Of a DNA stretch of 64,000 nucleotides, positions 54,398-64,000 are shown in pieces. The stretch spans positions 218,924-282,923 of the forward strand of contig JACRJL010000003.1 in NCBI GenBank assembly GCA_016215445.1. Reading direction: 5' to 3'. How positions within the stretch are numbered: the first letter of the stretch is position 1; each line of letters starts with the position of its first letter. A program made the position numbers and the translations under genes. Below the pieces are notes generated by a model. The model was not told the origin of the DNA. It worked only from the letters and a program-made list of their open reading frames with translations, and did no database searches. The stretch comes from Candidatus Roizmanbacteria bacterium. Lineage in GTDB: Bacteria; Patescibacteriota; Microgenomatia; UBA1406; GWC2-37-13.

Positions 54398-55831
54398 TTA
54401 TTTTGTAAAAAATCTCGCTTCTTGGATAAAGTTTACCCTAAATAGTAATTTTAAGGCCAAGAGATAAGTTATTATACCTGCTAGAATGCTGATTATCAAA
54501 GATGGTCCGGAGGAGAGAGGCAGCCTGGATGTCAAAATAACTGCTGTAGTCATAATTAGTGAAGATATTAAAAACTGGGTAACGTTTTTTAAAAAAGAAA
54601 AGTTGACGGTTTTTTTGGTAATGGCGATAACGATTATAAATGACGAAGAAAGGATTACTAGAGTGATAGGAAAACCTAGGCTGCCAAAAAAATGCGTAAG
54701 GATCGGGGTTAAAATCCAGGTGGCGACTGTCCAGAAAACCATGAAATAAAAAGACGTTTTTACTTTGCCTAATCCGTTGAGAAGATTGATGAAAGGCGTC
54801 GAGTAGGAAGAAAAAAGAGCTGAAAGACAAAAGAGGTAAAAAAGAGGCAGGGCTGGTGTCCATTTTGAATATTTAGGGATTAGATCGACCATTTTTTCCA
54901 TGATCAGAGCTAACCCGATTGTTGCAGGAATGACTATAGACGATTGGTAGTAAATCACCTTTTCCACCATTTTTTTCAGTTGGTCAAGATTGTTTTGGAA
55001 TCGTGAGAAAAGGGGAAAGAGAACCCTGCTAATACTATCCATAATAATTCTTATTGGCGATTCGGCCCATTTCTTTGCCCAACCTATATATCCTAATGTT
55101 TGAAAACCGAGTACTTTACCTAGATATAGCGTTAGTAGATCATCTTTGACCAAAGCCATGAATGAGGAGGCCTGAAAGGGGATACCGAAAGAAAGCAGTC
55201 TTTTTAAAGTAGAAAAATCTATTTTTAGCTTCATCTTCCAAGGGGAAATATAATAAATGGCAAAAACTCCGACGATCGCCCTCAAAATTACCCCTGCAGT
55301 GAAGCTTTTCAGCCCCATACCCATGATTGCGGAGACAATTACAGTCAGGTAAAAAACTGTGTTTTCAATGATTTGCACTAGAACAATTTTTTGAAACTGA
55401 ATTTTCCTTTCAAGAAATATAGAAGGGATGGTTTTTAGAGAAGAGAGAAAAAAGGATATTAATAAAGCCCAATAAAGAGTGAGACCTTCCGGAGGAAGTT
55501 TGTAAAACTTGATTATAAATGAAGTTACCGAGAAACCAAGAAAAACGATCAACAAAACTAAGATTTGCTGAACGGTAAACACTGTGGTTACTTCGTCATC
55601 ATCTATTTCCTTTTTTTGAATGAGCGAGGCGGCCAAACCTATATCAGAGAAGTAATTAAGAATGGCGATTAAAGAAAGAACTGTAAAATAAATCCCGAAA
55701 ATCTGAGGTGTTAGTAAAATAGTTAAAACTAGATTGGCTGCAAAACCTAGAATAGCGGAATAACCGCTTTGAAAAAAGAGGCTGAAAGCACTCAAAATCG
55801 TCCGTCTTTTTATTTGTTGATTATTTTCCAT
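54398..55831 (-). CDS. Wzx-type polysaccharide flippase (MOP superfamily)
   Basis: 477 aa with 12-14 membrane helices. The N-terminal 'FGIYFTVLSLIAILNYFSDIGL' region (core 'YFSDIGLAASLIQ') and the 'DDDEVTTVFTVQQIL' segment match the WzxC branch of flippases. It should turn lipid-linked glycans from the inner to the outer face of the membrane. It is the only flippase in the window and sits in the middle of the operon. The start lies 22 nt inside the preceding gene. Confidence 0.9.
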   Translation of the reverse strand: MENNQQIKRRTILSAFSLFFQSGYSAILGFAANLVLTILLTPQIFGIYFTVLSLIAILNYFSDIGLAASLIQKKEIDDDEVTTVFTVQQILVLLIVFLGFSVTSFIIKFYKLPPEGLTLYWALLISFFLSSLKTIPSIFLERKIQFQKIVLVQIIENTVFYLTVIVSAIMGMGLKSFTAGVILRAIVGVFAIYYISPWKMKLKIDFSTLKRLLSFGIPFQASSFMALVKDDLLTLYLGKVLGFQTLGYIGWAKKWAESPIRIIMDSISRVLFPLFSRFQNNLDQLKKMVEKVIYYQSSIVIPATIGLALIMEKMVDLIPKYSKWTPALPLFYLFCLSALFSSYSTPFINLLNGLGKVKTSFYFMVFWTVATWILTPILTHFFGSLGFPITLVILSSSFIIVIAITKKTVNFSFLKNVTQFLISSLIMTTAVILTSRLPLSSGPSLIISILAGIITYLLALKLLFRVNFIQEARFFTK

Positions 55832-57252
55832 ATTAGAAATATAAAAACGGTTAAAGAAATAAAACTTGATATTTTTTCGATTGGAGTCTGTTTATTTTTG
55901 GCAAAAGGTTCCAAAGTCGATCGAGCAAAAAACTCAGTTGGTATTTGTCTTTTATTTTCAAGGCTTCTCCAGTATTTGTAATCAGTCGTTTTCGGTAGAT
56001 ATTCTGCAACAGCATAGGCGGCTTTGTTGTTAATAAATTCTTGAGACAGGTATTGTTTTTCGAATCTGTCTTTTTTGATTTCCCGCCCGACAAAATATTT
56101 ACCATTAATAATCAGAACCGTTGTTATAACACCTATAATCAACAGATTCTTGAAAGGAATATTAGTAAAGTTTTCAAAGAAATAAGCGGAAAAAAAAGCG
56201 ATTCCCAAAAGCGATATACCGATGAAACGCCAGGGGAATTGGATAATGGACATAATCGGAGAAAACGTCTCCCAGAGAGGACGAGATTGGTAGAGCGTGA
56301 GAAAAAGAGATCCGGTTGACAGAATAAGAAAAAAGTAATGAATTTTCTTGTTTTTTTTCCCTTTCAACAAAAATAAAAGGCCAAGGAAAAAAAGCGTCAG
56401 TTGTATTTTTCCGATTTTAAAAGACATACCGTCATTGACGCATCTGACTGTTGACCCGCCATAGCCCCAGTTTGACTGCCACAGTTGGTTGGCGCATAAG
56501 AAATGGTCGTGGAAGTCAGTTGCGGTTGCCACTTCCCTGGCCCAGGTATATTTCATCTCTACTAAAGCTGGGAGCCAGAAATAAACACTTAAAAGAATGG
56601 CCAAAGCGAGGCTCAAAAGATTTTGTTTCTTGTTTTTTAGAAGGAGTAAGAAAACAATAACAATTGGTAGGGAGATGAGGGAGAGGATGTTATGAGAGGT
56701 GAACAAAAAAGATAGAACTAAACCTGTGCCTATAAGTTTTTTTATATTTATTTTCTGGCTGTTTTCATAGACAAATAGCAAAGCCAGTGGTAAAAGAGAC
56801 AAAAACCAAAGCTCCGCTAAATTTCCCCGAACAAAGATGTTGAGAGGAAAATATAGAGAAGTAATATAAAGTATTCCTCCTAGAAGCGAAGGAAAAAAGC
56901 CGAAAAATTTTTTAAGAAATAAATAGGCTGAGATGAACCCGATCAATAGAGCTAACAGAAAAGAAAATTTTAAGGAAGAGACTATATCAAAACCAACCAA
57001 ATTTATGGCCGATGTCACCCAATAGGAAAACGGCGCATAGAAATTAAAGACTGGAAAGCCGAGTCCATAGTTAAAATCAAGAGCAACTCGTGGTGGAATG
57101 TTTAGATATTTTAAATTAAGGGTGAACTGCTGAACCCGGGCTGGTTGGGTGGAGTCGTGAAAAGTAAACATGACGGAAGAAAAAGGATTGAGATTTCGCC
57201 CGAGAAAAAAAATAATCATCAAAGCAGCCAGTACCAGCAGGATCTTTTTCAT
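55810..57252 (-). CDS. PTPS-related (6-pyruvoyl-tetrahydropterin synthase-related) membrane protein
   Basis: 480 aa with about eleven membrane helices. 'FHDSTQPARVQQFTLNLKYLNIPPRVALDFNYGLGFPVFNFYAPFSYW', of which the key words are FHDSTQPARV, NYGLGFPVFNF and APFSYW, is the signature of this family. 'RGNLAELWFLSLLPLALL' follows. Despite the database name it is a GT-C-like membrane protein, not a pterin enzyme. Probably a glycosyltransferase of unknown substrate. It follows the 473-aa gene after 18 nt. Confidence 0.8.
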   Translation of the reverse strand: MKKILLVLAALMIIFFLGRNLNPFSSVMFTFHDSTQPARVQQFTLNLKYLNIPPRVALDFNYGLGFPVFNFYAPFSYWVTSAINLVGFDIVSSLKFSFLLALLIGFISAYLFLKKFFGFFPSLLGGILYITSLYFPLNIFVRGNLAELWFLSLLPLALLFVYENSQKINIKKLIGTGLVLSFLFTSHNILSLISLPIVIVFLLLLKNKKQNLLSLALAILLSVYFWLPALVEMKYTWAREVATATDFHDHFLCANQLWQSNWGYGGSTVRCVNDGMSFKIGKIQLTLFFLGLLFLLKGKKNKKIHYFFLILSTGSLFLTLYQSRPLWETFSPIMSIIQFPWRFIGISLLGIAFFSAYFFENFTNIPFKNLLIIGVITTVLIINGKYFVGREIKKDRFEKQYLSQEFINNKAAYAVAEYLPKTTDYKYWRSLENKRQIPTEFFARSTLEPFAKNKQTPIEKISSFISLTVFIFLIWKIINK

Positions 57253-57270: not shown

Positions 57271-58692
57271 TTACTGTCTTTGAAGAAGAATATCATAAGA
57301 ACTAATTATATAAGCATTTTTTGGTATTATTTTATCTTCAAATCCGTAAGCGGCCTGCAAACTTGTTCCGGGGAAATAATGGTCGATAAAGTTTTGGTCG
57401 CTCAAGGTTACTTTCAATTTTTCCGACCCTCCCCAAGGATTAAATTTCTGATTATCTGAATCCTTAAAATAAATAAAACTGTGTTTTACAATTTCTTTTT
57501 TACTTTTTTCAAAGTATCTTTCGGCGTTTTTTGTGAATCGGGATTCCAATAAAAACGTACTTGACGATTCATGGATTGAAGTTCCCAATATTTGTAGACC
57601 CAAGTATAAAACAATAAGGATTAAACCGAATATTTTAAAAATTCTATCTCCTCTCATTAAATAAGTTATTAAGAAGGACTGAATCAAAACGACGAAAACC
57701 AATGGTATTGTTAATCTTACCATCCAACGGTGTTCTATAAAAAGAATCGGTCCTAGAAAAATGACAAATCCTAACAAGCTAATAAAAGCCAGATTTTTAA
57801 TTTGATTTATCTTATTTTTATTTTTTAGAAAATAAAAGGTGACGGTAATAAATAATATTAAATAATAGCTTATTAATAATAAATAGTAGTTTTTTATTTC
57901 AGGGAAGTTTTTTAGCATTTTCCAGAAATCTATTATTGGCGCCTTAAAAATGCTTATAAAATAAAGGGAAGTAAAATTAGGGACGCCTAGACTCCAAAAA
58001 GAGTACCAAACAAAATTATTTATTGTTAGTTTCAAGTTTGATTGGAGGCTGTAATTCTCTAGAGACGAGGCGCTTGATAGCCCATTTTTATAAATTAGGA
58101 TAGAAAAGAAACTAGCGATAAAATAAGGAATAAGTTTCTTGTCTAACGATCTATTTTTAATTAGACTAAAAATAATCAAAAACGGTAAATAAAAGACAGC
58201 GGATTCTTTTGAAAGCAGCGCCAGAATAAAGAATATTATTGAAAAAAAATTCTTTTTCGTTAAAAAATAGAAAAAAGAGGCGTTAAGAAGAGTGAAGGCG
58301 GCGATTTCTTGAAAAGTACCGAAGTAATAAAGTTGAAAAACGTGAGTGAAATTCAAGGCGTAGAATATGGTAGTGAGCGCTGTCAAAAATTTATCTTTGA
58401 ATAAGAAAGTAACTATTTTATGAAAATAATAAATACCAATAAAAAAAACAGTGAATACTAAAAGATGAGATAAAAAAGCATTTTCTTTTAGAAAATGGAT
58501 TAATGAGTAGAAGACCTCGGTTGACAAAGGTCGATAAAAATAGTTTTTATCCGGGGAGAAAAAATGAAAAAATTGGCCTATATTAGTAATTCGGCTTATC
58601 TTCAAAAAGAAAAAATCGTCGTTAAAAAAATAAACATTGAAAGCATTTCGGAAAAGGAAGGTAGTTAAAGCAAAAAGAAAGATGAGGAACAT
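57271..58692 (-). CDS. GT-C-like membrane glycosyltransferase
   Basis: 473 aa with about eleven membrane helices. The first outside loop has 'FFNDDFFFLKISRI' (about 20-33) with an acidic pair and then 'YFYRPLSTEVFYSLIHFL' with the Arg-Pro common in this group. The C-terminal 80 residues lie outside. It is packed with 2 nt to the upstream GT39-like gene. Donor and acceptor unknown. Confidence 0.78.
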   Translation of the reverse strand: MFLIFLFALTTFLFRNAFNVYFFNDDFFFLKISRITNIGQFFHFFSPDKNYFYRPLSTEVFYSLIHFLKENAFLSHLLVFTVFFIGIYYFHKIVTFLFKDKFLTALTTIFYALNFTHVFQLYYFGTFQEIAAFTLLNASFFYFLTKKNFFSIIFFILALLSKESAVFYLPFLIIFSLIKNRSLDKKLIPYFIASFFSILIYKNGLSSASSLENYSLQSNLKLTINNFVWYSFWSLGVPNFTSLYFISIFKAPIIDFWKMLKNFPEIKNYYLLLISYYLILFITVTFYFLKNKNKINQIKNLAFISLLGFVIFLGPILFIEHRWMVRLTIPLVFVVLIQSFLITYLMRGDRIFKIFGLILIVLYLGLQILGTSIHESSSTFLLESRFTKNAERYFEKSKKEIVKHSFIYFKDSDNQKFNPWGGSEKLKVTLSDQNFIDHYFPGTSLQAAYGFEDKIIPKNAYIISSYDILLQRQ

Positions 58693-58694
58693 AA

Positions 58695-60203
58695 TTATTT
58701 ATCAGTCGTTAGTTCAAATAAATGGAAATCGGATTGGTATCCGGGTTTTTCGATTCTCTTTACCAATTTCATCGGCCAAAATTCTGGGAATTCGTCACGG
58801 TGTGAAAAAAACACATAAACATAACTGTCTTTTAAGAGCGGTTGATTTTCATAGAGCTGTTTTTCGTTGAGAGGCCAGTAACCTTTTAGTGTGATTTTAT
58901 CAGTTGGTTTAAGGTAAACGTCTAGGACGTCGTAGGCCATACCAAAATTGCCTTCAGCGATAATGACAACAGGTTTATCCTTAGACTTCTTTCTGGCAAA
59001 TTCCATAGTTTCTTTGATTCCCCAGCCTGCTGGCCAACCTTCGATATACTGTCCGCGGTCTACTGCCGGAAAAGGAATATTTTTATAACCGAATAATATG
59101 GTAAAGTCAAAAAAAACAACAGAAAGAAAGATCAAAACAAATAAGAACTTTTTTGTTTTATCAGACAAATAATAAGCGGCAAGAATCAATAGTATGGAAG
59201 CGAAAAATATCAGATAGCGGGGGAATAAAACTTTGGTAAAAAAAACAATAGCTGTGAAAGGGAGGAGAATCCAGAGTAAAAAATAAAAACCAAGCTTGAT
59301 GTCTTTTTTAATTAGTTTTATTAATCCGCTTAGCCCAATTAATCCCAATACAAAACCCATCTCCCAGAAAATATATAGTGGCGTATATCTCAAATTGTTC
59401 CAAAAGTATTGAAAAGGTGTTTTAAAAAATTCGTCAAAACTCATAACAAAAGTAAGGTTTTTCTGGTCGACGTAATGGAAAAACGGAGAGAGTCGTTGAA
59501 TATTATAGATTACTAGTGCGATTGTAATCGAAAGTGCCAAAAGAAAATAATAGTTGACCGACTCTTTAAAGAACTTCCTTAGATTTTTTTGGAAGACGAG
59601 AATAGGTGAAATGATTCCCAGCATCAAAAAAATTCTTACAGACGATTTGGCCAGGAGAAAAAATCCTCCCAATAGGCCCAAGATTAATGAAGTCGATAAC
59701 AGTTTTTCTCTAACAAGATAGATAAGAAAAAGAAAAATCCAAATAAAACCGGCGTTGACCCAAGAATCTACCAAAGCCATTCTCTCATAAAAAAGGAAAT
59801 ATGGTGTAAATACATAAAGAAATGATCCCAATTGGGAAGCACGTTTTCCGAAGAGATAGAAAGTAAGGCTGAAGAATCCGACTAGACTTAAAAAACCACC
59901 GAGGACGCCAAACAATCGGCCAGCCAAAAGAGCATTATCAGGGAATAGTTTCAAGAAAGGAATTGTCCCCCAGGTTTGTAGGGGTTGTTTTCCGTCTGTC
60001 AAAGAAATAAACCTCCACGAGGCATCGTGCCAGGCGACTTTAGCCCAATGGATATAAATACCTTCGTCTGAAAAAATCGGAAATTTATCCAAGTTAATTA
60101 AGCGAGTGAGAAAAAATAAGCCGATGATCAAAATTATTATTAATAAATCTTTACGAGAGAGGTTTTTTTTCAGAAAGTTAAAGATTTTAAAAATGTCGAA
60201 CAT
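58695..60203 (-). CDS. GT39/ArnT-like membrane glycosyltransferase
   Basis: 502 aa with about twelve membrane helices. 'FPIFSDEGIYIHWAKVAW' (about 38-55) and 'DGKQPLQTWGTIPFLKLFP' follow the GT39/ArnT layout: an acidic pair in loop 1, then K-Q-P-L. The C-terminal outside part has 'VVIIAEGNFGMAYDVLDVYL'. It should use a polyprenyl-phosphate sugar outside the membrane. It is in the long glycan operon with 2-nt gaps to both neighbours. Confidence 0.83.
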   Translation of the reverse strand: MFDIFKIFNFLKKNLSRKDLLIIILIIGLFFLTRLINLDKFPIFSDEGIYIHWAKVAWHDASWRFISLTDGKQPLQTWGTIPFLKLFPDNALLAGRLFGVLGGFLSLVGFFSLTFYLFGKRASQLGSFLYVFTPYFLFYERMALVDSWVNAGFIWIFLFLIYLVREKLLSTSLILGLLGGFFLLAKSSVRIFLMLGIISPILVFQKNLRKFFKESVNYYFLLALSITIALVIYNIQRLSPFFHYVDQKNLTFVMSFDEFFKTPFQYFWNNLRYTPLYIFWEMGFVLGLIGLSGLIKLIKKDIKLGFYFLLWILLPFTAIVFFTKVLFPRYLIFFASILLILAAYYLSDKTKKFLFVLIFLSVVFFDFTILFGYKNIPFPAVDRGQYIEGWPAGWGIKETMEFARKKSKDKPVVIIAEGNFGMAYDVLDVYLKPTDKITLKGYWPLNEKQLYENQPLLKDSYVYVFFSHRDEFPEFWPMKLVKRIEKPGYQSDFHLFELTTDK

Positions 60204-60205
60204 AG

Positions 60206-61651
60206 TTATAAGTCAAATTCATATATTTTAACACCATAATCCAAAGGTTTCATATCAATCAGTTTTCCGATTGAGAGATGTGAAGTGGCTCGATCACAGA
60301 TGGCTGCCTCGCAAAAGTAATAGGCTGTTTTTACTTTGGGGTAGCAGCGATTAATAATCTGTTGACACTTATCATAAGCCGGTCTGTTTTTGACTAAAGA
60401 CATCAGGTACCTGTGTTTACTTTCTATAAATGTTTGTGGAAAGATGTTATAAGCTATACAGTAATCTTTTTTGACAGTGGTTTTTTTAATTGATTCTGTT
60501 AACCAAAGGTAAGATTTGTCGAAAGCTCCGAATGTAGGAGATCTTATAAGATTGATAAGAATGAGAACGAAAAATACGATCATTGTTTTTTTTTGCCCAA
60601 GGATATTTTTAAAAACTAAAACAAAATAAATTATTACGATTGGAATCAAAAACAAAAGATAAAAGTCGATGAGCGAGTTTTTATAGAAGAAAAGCATTAT
60701 TAAAGAGAAAATGAGAAAGAAGATTAATGGTTTTTCATATTTGTCTTGTCTCTTAATCGTCAAAGTCTTTATTCCAAGGGAAATCAGGAAAACAACCAAG
60801 GCAAAATATCCGATGATCTGATTCTTGAAAAAAAGAACCCTACTTATAAAAAAAGAGAAATCCCGGATTATAAATTTGATGAAAAAAGGAACTCCGAATA
60901 ATTTAAGTTTTGCCGTAGTTTGAGTCGCAATTAAAAAATTAATGATACCAGAAGTGTTTCTGAAGTTATTTTGTACCTCATAAATTACAAAAGGTAGGAC
61001 TAGAAAAAAATTCAGGATGAAGTATCGAAAAAACCTTTTGGAATTAAATTTTTTTGTAAATAGTAGAGTCAAGAAATAAAATATAAAAATAACTAGTCCT
61101 TGATAGTGAAGTTGAAAAGCGAGGTTGGCACTAATTGTTCCCCAATAAAGACTTTTTTCATCTTTTTCGAACAGAAATTTGTAAAGGAAATAAAAAGTAA
61201 GGATGGTAAATAAAGGTATTGGATTAGGATTCCAGGCGAAACGGGAGTATTCAATTGACAGAGGCGAAACTGCGTATAAAGTAGCGGCTATAAAGGCTAA
61301 GCTTCCCGAAAAAAACTTTCTTCCGAAAAGATAAATAACAATAGTCGTGATTGAAGAAAGAACCGCCGTCAAGAAAGCCGGCGCCAAAGGAGACTTAGAA
61401 AATAAATAGGCTAAACTCATTAAGTAGTACCAAAAAGGCGGCAGGAAAAAATCTCCGACTGATGCCTTGGGGCCGAGAAGAATAAAACTACTGGCTTGAA
61501 AATGGTCCTTGATGTAAAAAAGATCCCTTACTTGATCTTGGTGATAGGAAATAAAATAAGACAGGTGGAATATCCTTAAAAAAAGAGAAAACAAGAGTAA
61601 CCAGATAATAATTTTAAATACTTTTTTCATAGACGATGTTTTGACCATCAA
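60206..61651 (-). CDS. GT-C membrane glycosyltransferase, DQ(G/V)RD subfamily
   Basis: 481 aa from ATG 61651. A second in-frame start, ATG 61630 ('MKKVFKIIIWLLL'), is equally likely and cuts the overlap with the upstream gene from 38 to 17 nt. About ten membrane helices. 'YHQDQVRDLFYIKDHF' (about 36-51) and 'LGPKASVGDFFLPPFWYYLM' place it with the genes at 47213 and 48471. The C-terminal outside part has five or six cysteines ('DKCQQIINRCYPKVKTAYYFCEAAIC'; Cys only in this member in such number), perhaps in disulfides. Confidence 0.82.
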   Translation of the reverse strand: MMVKTSSMKKVFKIIIWLLLFSLFLRIFHLSYFISYHQDQVRDLFYIKDHFQASSFILLGPKASVGDFFLPPFWYYLMSLAYLFSKSPLAPAFLTAVLSSITTIVIYLFGRKFFSGSLAFIAATLYAVSPLSIEYSRFAWNPNPIPLFTILTFYFLYKFLFEKDEKSLYWGTISANLAFQLHYQGLVIFIFYFLTLLFTKKFNSKRFFRYFILNFFLVLPFVIYEVQNNFRNTSGIINFLIATQTTAKLKLFGVPFFIKFIIRDFSFFISRVLFFKNQIIGYFALVVFLISLGIKTLTIKRQDKYEKPLIFFLIFSLIMLFFYKNSLIDFYLLFLIPIVIIYFVLVFKNILGQKKTMIVFFVLILINLIRSPTFGAFDKSYLWLTESIKKTTVKKDYCIAYNIFPQTFIESKHRYLMSLVKNRPAYDKCQQIINRCYPKVKTAYYFCEAAICDRATSHLSIGKLIDMKPLDYGVKIYEFDL

Positions 61652-63587
61652 CTTTATTCTTTTTGATTATTGTTTTAATCTTACCGTCTCTCTTTTTTAG
61701 TATTATTTCTCCACCAAGAATCGGATCTAATTGAGGATATGGAATAAGATACTGTCTATTGTGGATTCTTGTTACTTTATTATCGATAATAATTGCTTTG
61801 TCAATAGCGTACTTGTCTAATATTGTTGGTGATAGATTAGGTTTTAAATAACCGATCTCTACTTTCCAGTCAGGCTGCATATTAGCTTTATATAAATACT
61901 CAATGTCATGTTTCTTTAGTTCGGTAAACTTAGTTAATTGTTCTTGAACTTTCGCCTCATCTTTTATGTTTTTGTGAATGACAGAAAAAACCGGCCACGA
62001 TTCAGCACGAGATAATATTTTTCCACTTTTTGAAATAAGAGTTCCATAAGAACCTTCTTCATATTTAGTTATGATTTGGTCTTCGAAATCAAAGTTATTA
62101 AGTAGTAAGGAATCCTGCCAATTAATTTTCCAAGAATTGTTTTCTCTAACAAAAATTATTTTTTTCTTGTTTGTAACCGTTCCCAGAAAAGTTTTATAAG
62201 TAATAACTAGGTCGCCTTTTGCATAATTTTGCCAGAAGTAAGTTATAGGAAGGTAAATAACTATTTTTTTGTCAGTGGCACCTAAATTTTTTTCAAAAGT
62301 TTGACCTAAACGCCAAAAAGCAGACCTTGAAAACCTGTCTTTCGTTTTATTGTCAAGATAACTATATAAATCTTGATAAGCGCTATTTTTCCATATTTCC
62401 TTTATCGTTTGACTAACATCATTAGGAGCCGGTTTCAAGAAAAAAACAATCTGAAAGAAAAAAACTATAACTAAGGGAATCAAAATTAGACGGTTGACAG
62501 TTTTTATGAACCCGGCCGATAGAACTATTAAAAAAGGAATTACTAAGACAAGATAGCGGGCATTAAATGGAACGAATGCATACATGAGTATAAGAAATAA
62601 GGAAATGGTAGTGAGATAGAGTTTTCTATCGTCAATTTCTTTTAATCTTTTGGCGACTAAAGCTGTAAAAAAAATCAAGTAAAGAGGCCAAAATATTGTC
62701 CATTCTTTTACTCTTTCCCAAGTGCTCCCCTTATACCAACCTTTTATGAAACCGGTTAAAGTTGATAAGAAAACCATTCCCAATATGGGTTGAGACTTTG
62801 AAGAAAGCCAATAAGAAACAATAATCCATTTTTGATTTCTTAGGAACTCAAGAAACGAATGATTCATCAAAAAGTACGGGAAATAAGAAAATATATAAGT
62901 AATAAAAGATATGAAAACTATAGGTAAAAGATAAATCGTTTTTTTATTCTTATAAAGAAATATTAGGTCGGCTATAACAATAGCTGCAGAGAAGAACCCT
63001 ATTTTTATAGATATAAAACCTCCAAGTGACAAACCGGCGATAACTAACCAGAAAAAAAACCTCGATTTTTTATTTTGTCCCTGCAGTTTTAACAGGGAAA
63101 GAACATGAACTAATAAAAAGAATAGTTGGGGAAGATCAAGCATGCTTTGAGAAATCTGATAAAAAATTATCGGCTCCATAGTAAATAAAAATAACGATAA
63201 TTTAGCCAAGTAGTCGTTTTTTAACACCAACTTGGAAATTTGATAAAAAACGAGCATTGTAAGAAGTAAAACAAAAATCAGTATTGTTTCCGCGTTTTTA
63301 AATATGGAAATTGAAAGACCATATAAATACTTACCTAAGACGGGTGTTTGTGGATCTATTTTAAAAAAACTCCAATTATGGACAAGGTCGAATGCCGTCA
63401 CTTCATAAACAATATTGTCGCTTACAGGCCTTTTGCTTATTGCCATGTTCCATTGAGAGTGGTCATATAAATCTCTAAGGTAACTATTATCGTATGGTGT
63501 CAGGAAGATTGTTCGATATGAATAGACAACGAAAATAAGGAAAAAGAAAATAAAAACATAGAATAGCCAATCACTTAACTTTTTCAT
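61614..63587 (-). CDS. GT-C membrane protein fused to a MecA_N/PBP-dimer-like exported module
   Basis: 657 aa. Residues 1 to about 385 hold about ten membrane helices; 'YDNSYLRDLYDHSQW' (about 33-47) and 'FKIDPQTPVLGKYLYG' lie in the first outside loop. Residues 391-492 resemble the NTF2-like MecA_N domain of PBP2a: 'VITYKTFLGTVTNKKKIIFV' then 'SWKINWQDSLLL', compared with 'WKLDWDHSVII' in PBP2a. Residues about 515-640 resemble the PBP dimer domain: 'GTLISKSGKILS', 'FSVIHKNIKDE', and near the end 'DGKIKTIIKKNKVDGQNI', as seen just before the transpeptidase in class B PBPs. No transpeptidase (SxxK) follows. The domain reading is by eye from memory of PBP2a. It may couple glycan transfer to peptidoglycan (inference). 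Confidence 0.75.
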   Translation of the reverse strand: MKKLSDWLFYVFIFFFLIFVVYSYRTIFLTPYDNSYLRDLYDHSQWNMAISKRPVSDNIVYEVTAFDLVHNWSFFKIDPQTPVLGKYLYGLSISIFKNAETILIFVLLLTMLVFYQISKLVLKNDYLAKLSLFLFTMEPIIFYQISQSMLDLPQLFFLLVHVLSLLKLQGQNKKSRFFFWLVIAGLSLGGFISIKIGFFSAAIVIADLIFLYKNKKTIYLLPIVFISFITYIFSYFPYFLMNHSFLEFLRNQKWIIVSYWLSSKSQPILGMVFLSTLTGFIKGWYKGSTWERVKEWTIFWPLYLIFFTALVAKRLKEIDDRKLYLTTISLFLILMYAFVPFNARYLVLVIPFLIVLSAGFIKTVNRLILIPLVIVFFFQIVFFLKPAPNDVSQTIKEIWKNSAYQDLYSYLDNKTKDRFSRSAFWRLGQTFEKNLGATDKKIVIYLPITYFWQNYAKGDLVITYKTFLGTVTNKKKIIFVRENNSWKINWQDSLLLNNFDFEDQIITKYEEGSYGTLISKSGKILSRAESWPVFSVIHKNIKDEAKVQEQLTKFTELKKHDIEYLYKANMQPDWKVEIGYLKPNLSPTILDKYAIDKAIIIDNKVTRIHNRQYLIPYPQLDPILGGEIILKKRDGKIKTIIKKNKVDGQNIVYEKSI

Positions 63588-64000
63588 AAGGATTCTTCAT
63601 TTTAATTGCTTTTTCCAAGGGATATTTGATTTCAAACGAATCATCAAAAACAATCTTCTGATATTTAAAATAAGTTCTCAGTTCGTAAAGGGAAGAGATA
63701 ATTATTAAAAAGAAAAATAAGTAGACATATTTGATCTTTAATTTTTCAGTTATTGAAACTGCGGCCAAACCGATAAAGTAAATGAGAGGAAGAATGACAG
63801 TAAAAGTTCTTAGCATATTAGGGTTTTCCCAAGGATAAGTCATAAGAGTGGGAAATAGGGAAAGAATAAAATAGAGAAGAAATAATTGGCTGTGAAAGCT
63901 TTTTTTATTTTTTATAGCAACTATAATTCCAAAAATAAACAAGATTGCCAGGATCGGATTTAAAGCTGGTTTTCCTGGATAGTTGTGGCGTCCGTTCATA
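63571..64000 (-). CDS. GT39/PMT-like membrane glycosyltransferase, N-terminus cut by window edge
   Basis: 143 codons are visible and the frame stays open past the right edge, so the Met at 63999 is probably internal. 'GRHNYPGKPALNPILAILFIFGI' (core 'NYPGKPALNPI') is the loop that precedes the late membrane helices of PMT/GT39-like proteins ('N-x-P-G-x-P-x-L/M'). Three or four helices and a short Lys-rich tail follow. The stop overlaps the start of the 657-aa gene by 17 nt, so it belongs to the same operon. Confidence 0.75.
   Translation of the reverse strand, partial: MNGRHNYPGKPALNPILAILFIFGIIVAIKNKKSFHSQLFLLYFILSLFPTLMTYPWENPNMLRTFTVILPLIYFIGLAAVSITEKLKIKYVYLFFFLIIISSLYELRTYFKYQKIVFDDSFEIKYPLEKAIKMKNPYEKVK

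Follow-up and report, generated by a model that had tools for sequence, protein, structure and literature searches.

The locus described here raises the question of what a membrane sugar transferase does with half of a penicillin-binding protein (PBP). It lies in a 64,000-nucleotide stretch of a Candidatus Roizmanbacteria contig (JACRJL010000003.1), called the window below, where a 657-aa open reading frame (ORF) starting with ATG encodes a GT-C part of the PMT/ArnT superfamily followed by a MecA-type PBP half made of MecA_N and PBP_dimer (Table 1). Both halves are of known kinds, but we found no description of their combination in the literature searched (most subscription journals lie outside its coverage), in agreement with the original prediction, made from the sequence alone, which knew of no described protein of this kind.

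A GT-C transferase joined to the non-penicillin-binding half of a MecA-type PBP

The original prediction had read residues 391-657 (61617-62417) as the non-penicillin-binding half of a MecA-type PBP, carried by a GT-C transferase and reaching up to, but not including, the transpeptidase. The sequence words it quoted are all present and in order, and profile comparison, Pfam matches in relatives and structure modelling bear the reading out, with the half being complete. Pfam gave no match to the transpeptidase family PF00905 in the window protein or in any relative scanned, and the reading frame closes at the boundary of that domain; the transpeptidase hits of the window genome are located elsewhere. 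Moreover, the module is not preceded by the single N-terminal anchor of class B PBPs, as in the model 11 helices come before it. The fusion protein is a PMT-type GT-C transferase and not a penicillin-binding protein.

Table 1. Features of the fusion gene and of its neighbours in the window
Feature	Position	Strand	Basis
Fusion gene: PMT-type GT-C transferase and MecA-type PBP pedestal half	61614..63587	-	ORF, Pfam, profile, model
GT-C part, residues 1-390	62418..63587	-	11 predicted TM helices (AlphaFold model), N-in/C-out, inside loops basic
Asp57, invariant acid in the first loop outside the membrane, where PMT/ArnT have their DE motif	63417..63419	-	Alignments
PVLGK, the window protein's version of the PMT-enzyme motif (H)PPLGK	63330..63344	-	Alignment; yeast Pmt2 HPPLGK aligned
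Last TM helix, residues 366-384, missing in module-less short relatives; brings the C-terminus outside	62436..62492	-	Alignment and model
MecA_N (NTF2-like) domain, residues 396-496	62100..62402	-	PF05223 above cut-off
PBP_dimer-type domain, residues 497-654, stops just before the position of the PBP transpeptidase domain	61626..62099	-	Profile, relatives
Upstream GT-C-like membrane gene, ends at window edge (413 aa in the genome), overlaps fusion	63571..63999	-	ORF, genome sequence
PMT_2 GT-C transferase, downstream gene, overlaps fusion ORF	60206..61651	-	Pfam
PMT_2 GT-C transferase, same run	58695..60203	-	Pfam
Membrane protein, same run, no Pfam family above cut-off	57271..58692	-	Pfam
PTPS_related/PMT-like membrane protein, same run	55810..57252	-	Pfam
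Wzx-type polysaccharide flippase (Polysacc_synt_3)	54398..55831	-	Pfam

When residues 391-657 were scanned by HMM, one of the two expected domains was recovered from the window sequence itself and the other from its relatives. MecA_N (PF05223) scored 23.4 bits with the whole protein and 24.6 bits with the module, against a cut-off of 22, and the NCBIfam models for enterococcal PBP4(5) and for MECA_PBP2A matched across the MecA_N/dimer boundary with E ~1e-5. PBP_dimer (PF03717) remained below threshold for the window sequence alone, the dimer half of this protein being too diverged to score by itself, but was found in 13 of 25 relatives (best 1.4e-20; E <= 0.01); of the same 25, 20 gave MecA_N. 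In one relative, L034, PMT, MecA_N and PBP_dimer each exceed their curated cut-offs in a single chain.

A profile of 25 modules (A5, 293 positions), searched against all PDB sequences, matched B. subtilis PBP3 (7bn9) with E=2.1e-30 from profile position 2 to 291 (chain 26-327), PBP2a with E=2.9e-24 (chain 6-302, which is residues 31-327), PBP5fm with 1.4e-22 and PBP4 with 1.4e-20. The match to PBP2a stops at residue 327, at the start of its transpeptidase. PBPs that lack MecA_N (FtsI, MrdA, SpoVD and others) were matched by the second half of the profile alone, at 3e-5 and weaker, and therefore each of the two domains has support of its own. A match to YoeB, in its NTF2-like part, was also obtained; we rejected it as an identity because the similarity continues through the PBP_dimer half. 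Comparison of template-free models with the PDB by Foldseek gave the same answer, the best 50 matches listed all being MecA-type PBPs, with 3zg5 among them. These alignments run over ~300 columns with poor global TM-scores and rmsd, as would be anticipated from treating two lobes and a different first half as one rigid body. AlphaFold left the GT-C part unfolded when given 4 sequences and folded it when given 46, the full-length model then having a mean pLDDT of 93.8 and a pTM of 0.90, and MecA-type PBPs again filling its best 50 PDB matches.

In the GT-C part, the window sequence alone gave no Pfam match, but PMT_2 was matched by 20 of 34 members and PMT by 10 of the 34, and a GT-part profile searched against the PDB matched only yeast Pmt2 (8.5e-5) and ArnT (2.1e-4), in entries 6p25 and 5ezm. 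The alignment shows S44, D57, P82, Y87, G90 and G189 to be invariant, D57 in the 34 GT-part rows and in 46 full rows alike. This aspartate is followed by the (H)PPLGK motif, which reads PPLGK or HPPLGK in many relatives. The model has 11 membrane passes, the inside loops are basic and the short forms stop one helix sooner, and from this the PBP half is predicted to lie outside the membrane. PBP pedestals act outside the membrane.

Distribution and descent of the fusion

A search of the window genome's own family found four further copies, L005 among them, with 32-56% identity in the module. When 373 genomes of the class Microgenomatia (a class assignment that rests on named relatives) were searched with the module profile, 23 were positive, and a MecA_N search added G397/L043, bringing the count of CPR genomes that hold the fusion to 24 of the 373. 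All readable positives share one architecture, about 610-735 aa long, in which a multi-helix GT-C protein ends in the module; in L005 (G056:C18) the GT-C part is broken by frameshifts or a stop and the module frame is open, a matter of decay or of assembly error. A scan of ~85,000 named species, which began from motifs of the fusion's own GT-C family so that unrelated GT-C/PBP fusions elsewhere lie outside its reach, returned the fusion only from Microgenomatia lineages or from bins whose names are no more specific than bacterium, Patescibacteria or Microgenomates. The lineages that bear it are Roizman-, Gottesman-, Levy-, Woese-, Shapiro-, Curtiss-, Davies-, Collier- and Beckwithbacteria, and module-less GT-C relatives were found in Microgenomatia, one Parcubacteria bin and three archaeal bins. 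Relatives were found by the alignment-based scan, but not by single-protein scans of genome contigs and viral contigs.

This recurrence settles one possible objection, that the fusion is an artefact of misassembly or of chance similarity. In favour of the objection, the Pfam score of the window sequence on its own is barely above the cut-off. However, the fusion recurs in more than 20 other genomes and is thus not a chimeric assembly, the profile reaches E=2e-30, and three Pfam families are above cut-off in L034. We therefore reject an artefact, to which we give practically no weight, as refuted by the relatives.

Among 380 genomes sampled from the phylum, the fusion was the sole MecA_N protein of PBP type, and the module profile was matched end to end in three fusions only; 74 other genomes of the phylum matched its second half only, with positions and frame lengths as in ordinary class B PBPs (few were inspected individually). 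As no other PBP-type MecA_N was seen in this sample, the module was not derived from a MecA-type PBP still common in the phylum. Among candidates set aside, a MecA_N match in G376 is a 112-aa frame beside MurJ/MetG-like genes and was judged a chance hit, that in G510 is an unrelated 222-aa one-helix protein, and a 24,602-aa open frame in G557 consists of masked N.

A quick tree of the GT part, its root not inferred, places all long forms and the module-less L058 on one branch (SH-aLRT 99), and the 26 long forms need two changes with respect to the 20 short forms, compared with a shuffled mean of 15. On these sequences, the simplest reading would be one gain of the fusion and one loss, and a single origin with long retention is probable. 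The module tree reproduces the three main clades. L058 (7881-9089; Roizmanbacteria LBTJ01000011.1) belongs to the fusion clade and has lost the PBP half while keeping the extra C-terminal helix, with a GT2-like gene directly after it. In L067 (2113-4657; Beckwithbacteria) a short-form and a long-form GT-C gene stand in tandem, the long one ending after MecA_N, and the dimer half is trimmed in some clades.

That one family member has lost the module and another has it truncated would fit a passive spacer, or a functionless relic of an accidentally fused PBP. Against this, many lineages of the class have kept the module, with little change in length, and in the closest pair it is nearly as conserved as the enzyme part (56% versus 58%), and we regard a spacer or relic as very unlikely.

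Glycan genes and the role of the pedestal

The fusion overlaps both of its neighbours (61614-61651 and 63571-63587) in a minus-strand run of GT-C, DPM-synthase-like GT2, GT-C, fusion, four GT-C-like membrane proteins, Wzx flippase and GT2. The GT2 gene resembling dolichol-phosphate-mannose synthase (5mlz, 2e-16) lies beyond the upstream GT-C-like gene, outside the window. The nearest relative has a matching gene arrangement. In the lineage of the window the fusion belongs to a glycan-assembly locus, and the locus is consistent with a lipid-linked surface-glycan pathway. Genes for GT2, PMT_2, GT4 and Wzx abound in the loci of Roizman-, Levy- and Collierbacteria and of further lineages. The Gottesmanbacteria gene has EamA, HD and nucleoside deoxyribosyltransferase genes as neighbours and no glycan locus around it, and with such varied surroundings the enzyme may not be bound to a single pathway. 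The region from 42930 to 63999 of the window holds unusually many PMT_2-type GT-C membrane transferases. At L066 (3303-15615), the fusion gene sits between cell-wall and division genes, with an RsmH/MraW-like gene upstream and a MraZ-like gene and an FtsI-type PBP downstream (the PBP by Pfam, the other two by eye).

We infer that the donor is a polyprenyl-phosphate sugar and that transfer takes place at the outer membrane face, Asp57 being the putative catalytic acid/base. The DPM-synthase-like gene two genes upstream is suggestive as the source of this donor. The C-terminal 260 residues, a MecA_N and PBP_dimer pedestal predicted to lie outside the cell, would pack on the outer face of the transferase and either regulate it or dock it at a site of envelope assembly, so that one chain might do what the PBP2 or FtsI pedestal does in trans for RodA or FtsW. 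The confident single-body model (pTM 0.90) is hard to reconcile with loosely tethered halves and suggests a fixed packing; topology and packing are both model predictions. By analogy, a lipid-linked-sugar transferase with a built-in docking or regulating pedestal is the reading that we favour, tentatively and at somewhat under even chances. Speaking against it, the module sequence is little conserved outside the fold core, the loss of the module in L058 and the retention of MecA_N alone in L067 mean that a complete pedestal is not needed for the enzyme part to persist, and in Gottesmanbacteria the gene lies outside any glycan locus.

The nearest competitor of this reading is that the module has been repurposed as a binder of the acceptor (a glycan, a lipid-linked glycan or a protein) beside the GT-C active site, with no link to peptidoglycan or to PBP-type regulation, as in other GT-C enzymes that end in soluble domains of unrelated kinds. 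We consider it quite possible, roughly one chance in three in plain terms, given that the gene stands among lipid-linked glycan genes in several lineages, that the ligand residues of PBP2a are not kept, that some clades have trimmed the dimer half and that the phylum sample holds no MecA-type PBP to co-operate with. At the same time, most members keep the full two-domain pedestal up to the transpeptidase boundary, seemingly more than a generic binding domain needs.

The original prediction had gone further in proposing a peptidoglycan-sensing arm, where the module would bind peptidoglycan or lipid II and couple glycan attachment to the wall. The module is homologous to that half of PBP2a to which a peptidoglycan analogue binds (3zg5, as above), and the window genome has five transpeptidase-domain proteins above cut-off, so its cell probably has a wall. 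In PBP2a the allosteric site is given as N104, Y105, N146, K273, D295 and Y297 (PMC9503099). Across 25 members these are mostly substituted or deleted, and the window protein lacks the K273-V277 segment altogether (PBP2a numbering), which weakens sensing of the PBP2a type and leaves such binding improbable. What the alignment does conserve in the module (Y46, T103, G106, W123, W127, G152, G296 and G321, PBP2a numbering) is mostly glycine, tryptophan and similar and looks like a fold core, with poor conservation outside it in the 25 members. A conserved ECC double-cysteine loop, possibly a metal or disulfide site, precedes GVSGxE...LKGxNGG in the modules of L016, L017, L018, L020, L021, L023, L027-L031 and L034 and is missing from the window's clade.

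Returning to the favoured pedestal reading, the architecture suggests a control or docking arm taken from the cell-wall machinery. Its broadest form, in which a non-peptidoglycan GT-C transferase captured a class B PBP pedestal as an activator or docking arm within its own chain, making a one-chain analogue of RodA-PBP2 that ties the assembly of surface glycans in Microgenomatia to the cell-wall machinery, is more speculative and to us rather doubtful.

Comparison with known systems

The fusion shows the PBP pedestal half living without a transpeptidase, on a membrane sugar transferase, and so opens to experiment the question of whether pedestals are inherently regulators or docking parts of glycosyltransferases at the outer face, and more than spacers. 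A marker of envelope biology is thereby gained for the Microgenomatia, a sizeable group of very small, uncultured bacteria with hardly any experimental study. At the same time, domain-based annotation could call these transferases penicillin-binding proteins or transpeptidases, when the domain that binds penicillin is missing from them.

Residues 393-654 match the non-penicillin-binding half of MecA-type class B PBPs (S. aureus PBP2a, E. faecium PBP5, E. faecalis PBP4 and B. subtilis PBP3/PbpC) end to end, in the same order and with the same end. Unlike these, the fusion has no transpeptidase, replaces the single N-terminal anchor with an 11-helix GT-C enzyme and does not keep the allosteric-site residues. 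With the PMT/GT39-ArnT enzymes (yeast Pmt1-Pmt2, ArnT) it shares the acid of the first outer loop and the (H)PPLGK motif, and its profile matches are to Pmt2 and ArnT only, but at its C-terminus a PBP half takes the place of the domains that PMT and ArnT are known to carry. The short-form GT-C relatives of Microgenomatia (about 380-400 aa) are of the same GT-C family but have neither the last helix nor the PBP half, and many end in a basic tail that is presumably cytoplasmic.

As a functional analogy, the SEDS-class B PBP complexes RodA-PBP2 and FtsW-FtsI also combine a membrane glycosyltransferase with a PBP pedestal on the outside, and in these the pedestal activates the SEDS transferase via ECL4 (PMC8078798); the pedestal of PBP2 is also bound by MreC (PMC10257715). 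In contrast to the SEDS-PBP pairs, the fusion is one chain, its transferase is of PMT type and it carries no transpeptidase.
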